45,681 bases of DNA from a bacterium (GTDB lineage Bacteria; Patescibacteriota; Saccharimonadia; Saccharimonadales; Saccharimonadaceae), in NCBI GenBank assembly GCA_030431855.1, contig JAUIII010000001.1, positions 89,089 to 134,769 on the forward strand, in the 5' to 3' direction. Numbering within the stretch: position 1 is the first letter of the stretch; each line of letters starts with the position of its first letter. The position numbers and the translations under genes are program-made. A model generated the notes under the pieces. The model ran no database searches. It saw nothing but the letters and a program-made list of their open reading frames with translations, and was not told the DNA's origin. Below, in pieces: positions 25,124 through 27,299 of the stretch.

Positions 25124-25333
25124 ATGAGTACACCTAAAAAGAAATCAGTGTCTAAAAAACACACATCGCGTGTAGCCGATTCATCGGTAAGTAAAATGAC
25201 TAGCCAAGACTTGAAAGACTCGCTACTAGTTGTTTCAGTGGTAGTGAACTTATTCTTTTTGTGCTTGTGGGTTGCGCTACAAGTAACTCCGCAATACGAC
25301 GAAGCCTTAATATGGTTTTTTATACATCGCTAG
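25124..25333 (+). CDS. Small single-pass membrane protein
   Basis: A 69-residue protein with a very basic N-terminus (PKKKSVSKKHTSR), a Ser/Lys linker and one long hydrophobic helix (LLVVSVVVNLFFLCLWVALQV), then a short aromatic end. The positive-inside rule places the N-terminus in the cytosol. Not recognised. AAGGGGG precedes the ATG. A short TTG-initiated frame (25086-25127, beginning MTYEGACV) ends on its start codon. It closes the operon and is followed by a strong terminator. Confidence 0.65.
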   Translation: MSTPKKKSVSKKHTSRVADSSVSKMTSQDLKDSLLVVSVVVNLFFLCLWVALQVTPQYDEALIWFFIHR

Positions 25334-25352
25334 TGCTAGCGTGATGTAAACC

Positions 25353-25380
25353 AAAATACCCCCACATGTGGGGTATTTTT
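25353..25380. terminator. Bidirectional rho-independent terminator
   Basis: ATACCCCCACATGTGGGGTAT, flanked by A-run and T-run, folds into a stem of about 14 bp with one bulged C. It ends in TTTTT on the plus strand. It separates the yvcK operon from the dcw cluster. Confidence 0.9.
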
Positions 25381-25396
25381 TATAGAGTGACGGCTT

Positions 25397-25418
25397 TTTT
25401 CCACAAAACTGTGGAAAA
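25397..25418. repeat. Inverted repeat upstream of the mraZ promoter
   Basis: TTTTCCACA AAAC TGTGGAAAA is a perfect 9-bp inverted repeat with a 4-base centre, located between the terminator and the MraZ boxes. It resembles a dimer operator or a pair of DnaA-like/MraZ-like half sites. Confidence 0.5.
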
Positions 25419-25453
25419 CTAAATCGTAGACTACCGACATATGCAAAAAAGAC

Positions 25454-25505
25454 TTGTAGTGGGTAAGCGTGGGTAGTATAGTAGACTCAGTGGAAAAAAG
25501 TGGGT
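25454..25505 (+). promoter_or_regulatory. mraZ promoter with four phased MraZ boxes
   Basis: TATAGT (25477-25482) with a weak TTGTAG 17 nt upstream is the likely promoter. Four GTGGGT/GTGGAA boxes start at 25459, 25469, 25490 and 25500, that is at steps of 10, 21 and 10, so all face the same side of the helix. Two flank the spacer and two cover the start site. This is the arrangement of the known MraZ autorepression operator (TGGG repeats about 10 bp apart), so mraZ probably represses its own operon. Confidence 0.75.
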
Positions 25506-25603
25506 AACCCCCATCAAAACAAAAACCACTGCACACTAAAAAACTAAAATACCTAATCGCCTGCATACAAGGGGCGGGAAAGCCCAAACGCTAGAGAGAA
25601 GCA

Positions 25604-25969
25604 ATGGACTATTTCGAACGAAAGCTTGATGACAAGCGTCGGTTGACTATACCGACTGAGCTTCGAAATGAATTTGCAACTGGCGTAGTGCTGACCCGAG
25701 GGTTCGGCAACTATTTGCATTTATACCCTCAGCAAGTATGGGATCGGGAAGTAGAGCCAGCGCTAACTGGTAGTATTCTCGACGAAACAACTGCAGACTT
25801 GAATGTGCGATTTAGGCGAGGCAAGACATCAGCCGATCTCGACCAAAAACAGGGTCGGGTAACGCTTGAGCAGCATCTACTCGACTACGCGGGAATTACG
25901 CGTGACGTTGTTGCTGTGAGGGCAGGAGCTTACTGGCGCATTATGGCTGCTGAGAATGCCGATCACTAG
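25604..25969 (+). CDS. mraZ: Transcriptional regulator MraZ
   Basis: A 121-residue protein made of two SpoVT/AbrB-type DNA-binding folds. The first is FERKLDDKRRLTIPTELRNEF, the second DLDQKQGRVTLEQHLLDYAGI. MraZ forms a ring and represses the dcw operon by binding the direct repeats ahead of its own gene, and these repeats are visible here. Length is slightly below the usual 140. The leader from the TATAGT box is about 115 nt; only AGAGAGA precedes the ATG, so no strong SD. Confidence 0.93.
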   Translation: MDYFERKLDDKRRLTIPTELRNEFATGVVLTRGFGNYLHLYPQQVWDREVEPALTGSILDETTADLNVRFRRGKTSADLDQKQGRVTLEQHLLDYAGITRDVVAVRAGAYWRIMAAENADH

Positions 25970-26019
25970 TGTTGCATACCGATTTCATCCAGGTACATTA
26001 ACAAACAAACATTGAAACA

Positions 26020-26290
26020 GATACCTCGAGACCACCTATCCAGGCAGTATGTGCAGTGGAAAGGGCAACACACGAAACAAGCCTTGTACCTTCCTCTACA
26101 AACAACACCTCCCAAAAAACTCCACCTCACACATAAGTCTCTCAAATTCTGTAAAGGTTCCGGTTTATGCTTGCTACTAGCAAACAACAACCTACTACAG
26201 CTTTTACAGAGTTGCTTATACACAAAAACAAACACATTTACAAAAACAAAATGCATACTACCGCCTGGTTAGGTGATCTCGATGTAACAA
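26020..26290 (+). ncRNA. Candidate structured RNA in the mraZ-rsmH spacer
   Basis: The 436-base gap between mraZ and rsmH has no credible gene but strong folding potential. Bases 26024-26045 (CTCGAGACCACCTATCCAGG core) pair with 26263-26284 over about 22 positions with three mismatches, and AGTATG (26046-26051) with CATACT (26254-26259) extends it to about 28 bp. Inside, TCTGTAAAG (26148-26156) pairs with CTTTTACAGA (26201-26210), enclosing TTGCTACTAGCAA. The remaining loops are C/A-rich and nearly free of G. It fits none of tmRNA, RNase P or SRP RNA signatures. It may be a separate RNA or the leader of rsmH. Confidence 0.55.
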
Positions 26291-26296
26291 AGAAAG

Positions 26297-26340
26297 GAGG
26301 GGCTCGCCCCTCTAGATAGAACTGAAGTGAATTCAGTTTC
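26297..26340 (+). other. Two tandem hairpins before rsmH
   Basis: GAGGGGCTCGCCCCTC (26297-26312) forms a very stable hairpin that buries AAAGGAGG, a perfect SD with no start codon near it. AGAACTGAA/TTCAGTTTCT (26318-26340) forms a second one. No T-run follows either, so they are not simple terminators. Confidence 0.5.
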
Positions 26341-26392
26341 TAGCTTCCACCCTCTAAGGCTTGGTCTTAACAGTCTCGTCGGATGAGAGTGG

Positions 26393-26398
26393 TATACT
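26393..26398 (+). promoter_or_regulatory. -10 box giving a leaderless start of rsmH
   Basis: TGGTATACT is an extended -10; it ends 7 nt before the ATG at 26406. This box decides the rsmH start. Confidence 0.6.
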
Positions 26399-26405
26399 GT
26401 TACAA

Positions 26406-27299
26406 ATGAGTATTAAAGAACATCCACCACATTTACATGTTCCTGTTTTACTAGATGCAACGCTCGACACAATGCAACCTATGAAGGGAGAGAAGTATCT
26501 CGACCTGACGGCGGGTTACGGCGGTCATGCGCGGGCATTTTTAGCTAAAACTGAAAACTTTTCAGAGTCCGTCTTGGTTGATCGTGATATAAACGCGATC
26601 GTAGAGCTAGACGAATTCAAAAGCAAGGGATCGAGGGTGCTTCATACTGATTTTCTGGCTGCTTCACGGCAGTTAGTCGCAGCAAATGAGCGCTTCGATT
26701 GTGTGCTTGTGGATTTAGGGGTGTCGTCACCACAGCTCGATAGAGCAGAACGAGGATTCTCGTTTCAACACAACGGACCGCTCGATATGCGGATGGACCC
26801 TTTGAAAGAGGGTACTGCCGCAGATATCGTGAACCGTGCGTCTGAGGCCGAACTGGTACGTATATTTACGACCTACGGCGAAGAAAAGTTAGGGTTTGCT
26901 AGGAGGATTGCAAAAGCAATTCGGTTCAACAGGCCCTTTGAAACGACGAAGCAACTCGCAGATGTGATATTGAGTCAACATCGTGGCAAGTGGAGTCGAA
27001 TCCACCCCGCTACGCGTACCTTTCAGGCGCTCCGTATCGTCGTAAACGACGAACTTGGACAAATCGAGGCGATGCTGCCACTACTGCCAAAACTACTTGA
27101 ACCTGGCGGAAGGGTTGGCATCATAAGCTTTCACAGCCTAGAAGATCGTATTGTGAAACAATACTTCAAAGAACAAGCTAGCTCTGGCTATGAAGCAGAA
27201 CTCGAGGTTGTCACGAAAAAAGTCATAGACGGAGCCACCTATGACGCTCACAATCCGCGAAGTCGTAGCGCAAAACTACGGGTCGCAGTGAAAAAATAA
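26406..27299 (+). CDS. rsmH: 16S rRNA m4C1402 methyltransferase
   Basis: RsmH (MraW) methylates N4 of C1402 in the decoding centre of 16S rRNA. Signatures are HLHVPVLLDATLDTM, KYLDLTAGYGGHARAFL (SAM site), FDCVLVDLGVSSPQLDRAERGFSF, GPLDMRMDP, and FQALRIVVNDELGQ with GGRVGIISFHSLEDRIVKQ. The length of 297 is normal. The ATG at 26406 (MSIKEHPPHLHVPVLLD) is chosen over 26361, because the latter lies upstream of the -10 box and adds residues not found in the family. Confidence 0.96.
   Translation: MSIKEHPPHLHVPVLLDATLDTMQPMKGEKYLDLTAGYGGHARAFLAKTENFSESVLVDRDINAIVELDEFKSKGSRVLHTDFLAASRQLVAANERFDCVLVDLGVSSPQLDRAERGFSFQHNGPLDMRMDPLKEGTAADIVNRASEAELVRIFTTYGEEKLGFARRIAKAIRFNRPFETTKQLADVILSQHRGKWSRIHPATRTFQALRIVVNDELGQIEAMLPLLPKLLEPGGRVGIISFHSLEDRIVKQYFKEQASSGYEAELEVVTKKVIDGATYDAHNPRSRSAKLRVAVKK

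Follow-up and report, generated by a model that had tools for sequence, protein, structure and literature searches.

What occupies the spacer between mraZ and rsmH in this member of the Saccharimonadaceae? In the window (the whole stretch of 45,681 nucleotides that was analysed; all the features below lie on its forward strand), mraZ runs from 25604 to 25969 (Pfam PF02381, E 1.5e-14) and rsmH, also termed mraW, from 26406 to 27299 (Pfam PF01795, E 2e-89), and the distance from the mraZ stop at 25969 to the rsmH ATG at 26406 leaves the 436 bases that a first-pass annotation, made from the letters and their open reading frames, had counted correctly. That annotation saw in the spacer an RNA, regulatory or independent, belonging to the cell division cluster. 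This reading is supported on both points that the annotation itself had named as checks, compensatory changes in relatives and a fold far better than that of shuffled controls: positions 26000-26360 fold at -97.6 kcal/mol (z = -6.5, with 0 shuffles reaching that value), and the RNA by itself, 26020-26286, reaches -75.4 kcal/mol (z = -8.2, equalled by 0 of 200 dinucleotide shuffles). The RNA is present in one copy in its own genome. A protein-coding spacer was ruled out by eye, the indels of the relatives not being multiples of three. The existence of the RNA is near certain; its function is what we infer below.

The architecture is dominated by a long-range helix, P1, of 22-28 bp, which ties the two ends of the RNA together. 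Its 5' strand, supported by the fold and by covariation, lies at 26022-26053 and its 3' strand, which contains AGGTGATCTCGA and whose counterpart in other orders bears the rsmH Shine-Dalgarno sequence (SD), lies at 26252-26285; these arms bear out the helix of about 28 bp predicted earlier. In a gapless register of 22 pairs, 138 distinct sequences gave 90% standard pairs versus 72% (sd 0.7) after partner swapping; this test favours pairing, since its register was anchored at GGT and picked for complementarity in each sequence. Seven of the 22 pairs lie above a tree-simulated covariation null, whereas all 924 non-helix pairs fall short of it. When every pair was tested for covariation on a plain alignment, a test of little power, a single one, 26049-26260, was significant, and this falls within P1. 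Swapping partners among 68 sequences weakened the duplex energy from -41.3 to -28.7 kcal/mol. Compensatory changes among relatives, on which the first-pass annotation had staked its helix, are therefore plentiful, in the covariation of P1, in the swap tests and in the pairs of a pseudoknot.

This pseudoknot follows the 5' strand of P1. Its stem S1 pairs 26056-26059 with 26068-26071 (stem and loop, 26056-26071) and has changed on both sides in relatives, where it appears as GUGG/CCAC, GUGC/GCAC, GUGA/UCAC or GUAG/CUAC; its stem S2 (26063-26084), supported by a swap test and by pair counts, joins GGGC in the S1 loop (26063-26066) to GCCU beyond an A-rich linker (26081-26084), which makes the whole an H-type pseudoknot. 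All seven tested pairs have changed on both sides among relatives, and the observed values were matched by 0 of 500 shuffles; pairing is 78% in register and 33-48% in slid registers. The structure described earlier was real, and what that description missed was the pseudoknot (26056-26084) and a boxA-like element, GTACATTAACAA, at about 25993-26004, some 20 nt 5' of the long helix. The latter is supported by the consensus of the relatives, GnaCtTTAACAATt at 75 loci, and by its likeness to the boxA of the 16S rRNA leader in the order, GnacgTTAAAAATT in 20 leaders. In G001, a complete relative, the 16S leader carries GTACGTTAACAATTTAG, and the element upstream of the RNA is GGTACCTTAACAATCTG. 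As in transcripts controlled by boxA and Nus factors, the boxA here resembles the organism's own rRNA-leader boxA; each of the 14 genus genomes has a NusB gene (PF01029), and an RNase III gene is present too.

Between the pseudoknot and the 3' strand of P1 lies a C/A-rich single strand (26086-26145) comprising GTACCTTCCTC, CACCTCCC (26106-26113), CTCCACCTCACA (26120-26131) and ATAAGTCTCTCAA. It is unpaired in the predicted fold and nearly invariant in alignments, which show CACCUCCC-An-CUCCACCUCACACAUAAGUCUCUCAA almost unchanging across the window's order. This is followed by P2, in which ATAAGT (26133-26138) pairs with GCTTAT (26214-26219) around a variable hairpin domain, P3; the P2 pairing, as AUAAGU/ACUUAU, is kept in most relatives. 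The internal 9-bp stem of the first-pass annotation exists and is longer than stated: in the fold it has about 15 bp plus inner stems. After the P2 domain comes an A/C-rich single strand with a conserved ACAAAAACAAACACA motif (26220-26250). In some genomes, hairpins are inserted between CACCUCACA and AUAAGU. A near-identical GGGGCCCCCACAAAAACTTGTTTTT hairpin was also seen in L033, L061 and L079 between CACCTCACAC and ACATAAGTC, inside the otherwise invariant stretch, and L030, L044, L074, L092 and L093 carry different hairpins at the same insertion point. In other orders (L277-L288 and L296), P2 and P3 are replaced by a shared conserved hairpin, AAGGACUUAUU...AAGUCCUUACCACA, after CUCCACCUCACA.

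Two further hairpins, at about 26293-26345, one of them with the orphan SD AAAGGAGG, had been assigned to the RNA. This assignment fails: most relatives lack them, and fragments 18-63 bases long turn up at unrelated places of related genomes, so that the orphan-SD hairpin can be set aside as a component of the RNA. Since the 3' hairpins are not conserved with the RNA, the proposed pairing of the orphan SD with CCTCC also lacks comparative support; the CCTCC-containing stretch itself is nearly invariant. Within 26292-26378, pieces of a short GC-rich hairpin (AGGAGGGGCTCGCCCCTC) and of its neighbour occur elsewhere in G004, G005, G007, G012 and G750, and L073, L087 and L093 have hairpins similar to the AGGAGGGGCTCGCCCCTC hairpin at the equivalent spot.

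How widely is the RNA distributed? Searching with the spacer DNA brought up a homologue from every one of the 14 genus genomes, each of them lying between mraZ and rsmH. A search of named genomes with MraZ gave 80 loci, mostly from named Saccharibacteria and including oral TM7 and strain TM7i; at 79 of them (a degenerate copy at L101 included) the RNA lies 3' of mraZ, in the spacer before rsmH, and the 80th is cut short by the edge of its contig. Matches to the exact pattern CACCTCCCAAAN{0,8}CTCCACCTCA were found in 213 of 391 genomes of the class, and its reversed control is absent from the class-genome matches listed. A covariance model built on the 5' 120 positions of the RNA matches 152 of 155 genomes sampled from the class (Saccharibacteria/Saccharimonadia), other orders included, and 36 of the 37 class members in a phylum-wide sample; outside the class there were ten weak matches (E 1e-4 to 0.01), which lie near neither mraZ nor rsmH and look like chance. 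Whereas rsmH adjoins the RNA at every locus with an identifiable neighbour, mraZ was undetected in L116, L118 and genus g3, where a promoter-like sequence, boxA and the RNA persist upstream of rsmH. The retention of the RNA without mraZ, and also where it does not overlap the ribosome-binding site (RBS) of rsmH, indicates that it is kept independently of both.

This last point brings in the position of the RNA relative to rsmH, for which there are two arrangements. In the other orders (L277-L288 and L296), P1 has a 3' strand of the form ..AAUAGGUGACCUUGACAAUG, and at 11 of 13 loci this strand contains AGGUGA or AGGUAA some 8-10 nt 5' of the rsmH AUG, complementary to the 16S tail GGAUUACCUCC; the P1 duplexes of these orders have energies of -30 to -47 kcal/mol, and in L282 and L285 the rsmH ATG directly follows P1. 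The window and most of its order, in contrast, have no such SD inside P1, and rsmH lies farther from the RNA than in the other orders. There, a -10 element (at least five of six matches, within 28 nt of the rsmH ATG) was found at 66 of 123 loci versus 18 expected from shuffles. In the window, this element is TATACT at 26393-26398, as read from the sequence and in keeping with the order-wide count, and it suggests a near-leaderless rsmH transcript from an adjacent promoter. Across the G001 genome, no hexamers are more frequent than TATAAT and TATACT at 4-20 nt before gene starts, and for this reason leaderless mRNAs look common in G001 and the window's order. Inverted repeats flank the rsmH -10 element in several relatives, e.g., L031, L034, L044, L076 and L097, where a read-through RNA could form a hairpin across the start region.

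Does the RNA belong to a known system? No Rfam 15 family matches it at the window locus or in nine relatives, and no description of it was found in a literature search whose scope excluded most subscription journals and bioRxiv preprints. The nearest analogue by position is the mraW RNA motif (RF01746) of Actinomycetales, also a structured RNA upstream of mraW/rsmH, and the mraW of C. glutamicum has a reported transcription start and read end (PMC2864571, PMC3890552). That motif, however, belongs to another phylum, and its covariance model fails here: cmscan gave no match in 25300-26500 of the window (up to E 10) or in nine relatives (up to E 1). Another parallel is offered by boxA/Nus leaders, those of rRNA and of E. 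coli suhB, where boxA and Nus factors repress translation, Nus factors also promoting rRNA folding (PMC5725501). The likeness lies in a boxA that matches the rRNA leader of the same organism; the difference is that boxA here precedes a conserved, structured pseudoknot RNA of 220-290 nt in a division cluster, and that Nus binding is predicted. The processing stalks of pre-rRNA likewise consist of a boxA followed by a long-range helix closing a large RNA, and RNase III is encoded here, but the enclosed RNA is not rRNA and its processing is putative. Finally, 6S RNA, RNase P RNA, tmRNA and SRP RNA are single-copy structured bacterial RNAs of similar size, but none gives an Rfam match at this locus, the model for 6S RNA (RF00013) included; RNase P RNA and tmRNA are, moreover, located elsewhere in 14 of 14 genomes.

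On balance, with confidence a little better than even, the RNA can be taken as a new family with two forms: in some orders a leader of rsmH that is headed by boxA and occludes the RBS, in others a non-coding RNA in its own right. A single-copy RNA of about 220-290 nt would be transcribed from the mraZ promoter, or directly where mraZ has been lost. NusB and S10 on boxA would hold RNA polymerase in the antitermination mode across the untranslated stretch, preventing premature termination, and, as happens in pre-rRNA, would help to bring the far-apart strands of P1 together. P1 would, in the other orders, hide the rsmH RBS and so switch the translation of this 16S rRNA methyltransferase; in the window's order, the RNA would work apart from rsmH translation, probably after excision at P1, possibly by the encoded RNase III, and would exert its effect through the invariant single strand, as a binding site for a protein or a second RNA. 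A purely cis role has nevertheless to be reckoned with in the window's order, given that the RNA adjoins rsmH wherever the neighbour is identifiable. One could go further and suppose that the RNA is everywhere a cis leader or attenuator of the rsmH operon, its C-rich, G-poor strand serving as a Rho loading site and its boxA gating the polymerase that reaches rsmH and the division genes. The constant adjacency to rsmH, which outlasts the loss of mraZ, the presence of boxA, the base composition of the strand and the location of the rsmH RBS within P1 in the other orders would all fit. Rho sites are degenerate, however, whereas this stretch is almost letter-for-letter invariant across the order, and rsmH in the window's order often has its own promoter 3' of the RNA, which makes this explanation possible but, in our view, unlikely.

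Another possibility is that the unpaired CACCUC sites pair in trans with SDs, the RNA being a small RNA that acts as a decoy or as a repressor of translation. CACCUC is present in both invariant sites, is complementary to SDs and lies in a stretch that is unpaired in the fold; moreover, g3 retains only CACCUCCC, the other orders only CUCCACCUC and the remaining groups both, so that every group examined has at least one site. This retention makes an SD-like or protein-binding role plausible, as judged from sequence. Specific SD targets were nonetheless unsupported: in a comparison of hexamer counts at gene starts, the complements GAGGTG and GGGAGG were not enriched beyond ordinary SDs (GAGGTG 6 versus AGGAGG 39), and no single target emerged. 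Nor did the invariant stretch turn out to have a conserved partner in rRNA, tmRNA or RNase P RNA, to which it is no more complementary than shuffled queries are. Pairing with SDs in trans is, then, distinctly doubtful, and somewhat more so is a leader that senses a ligand or a protein and opens P1, whether as a riboswitch or through autoregulation by RsmH, with the RNA mimicking the 16S rRNA substrate. Such a leader would account for a pseudoknot and a conserved single strand beside an RBS-hiding helix in the other orders, and ACACACCUCCC resembles in its sequence the 16S ACACACCGCCC around C1402, the RsmH site; yet the likeness is a short one, and the very orders where RBS occlusion applies lack the CACCUCCC site. 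As for the idea that the structure arose by chance in a spacer without function or derived from repeats, to which the dispersed-repeat pieces in the two 3' hairpins might point, it is refuted by class-wide conservation, synteny, covariation and the fold (z = -8.2 for the RNA), and can for practical purposes be dismissed.

An RNA in 152 of 155 class genomes, with stretches invariant across the largest order and absent from Rfam 15, is likely to have a central role. It would connect the rRNA-type control by boxA and Nus factors with the peptidoglycan and division cluster and with a 16S rRNA methyltransferase, in bacteria that are reduced and depend on a host. With confidence clearly short of even, the RNA can be read as a new class of non-coding RNA in essentially all Saccharimonadia, undetected elsewhere in the phylum and under boxA control of the rRNA type, with an invariant C/A-rich strand that would influence translation or the assembly of ribosomes in trans and thereby tie the division operon to ribosome production in these ultra-small epibionts. 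The novelty applies to the RNA family; its mode of action may be a variant of boxA-led leaders. The family also lends itself naturally to comparing a leader that hides an RBS with an RNA that stands apart.

The start of the transcript that carries mraZ and the RNA is probably set by TTGTAG - 17 nt - TATAGT at 25454-25482, a likely promoter on reading of the letters. It is overlapped by TGGG repeats that resemble MraZ boxes, and the regions upstream of mraZ in relatives keep both TATAGT and the TGGG repeats. Within 25454-25540, a conserved leader (CAGTGG...AACAAAAACCACTG) lies 3' of this promoter with its TGGG repeats, and the leader is still present in L116 and L118 despite the loss of mraZ there.
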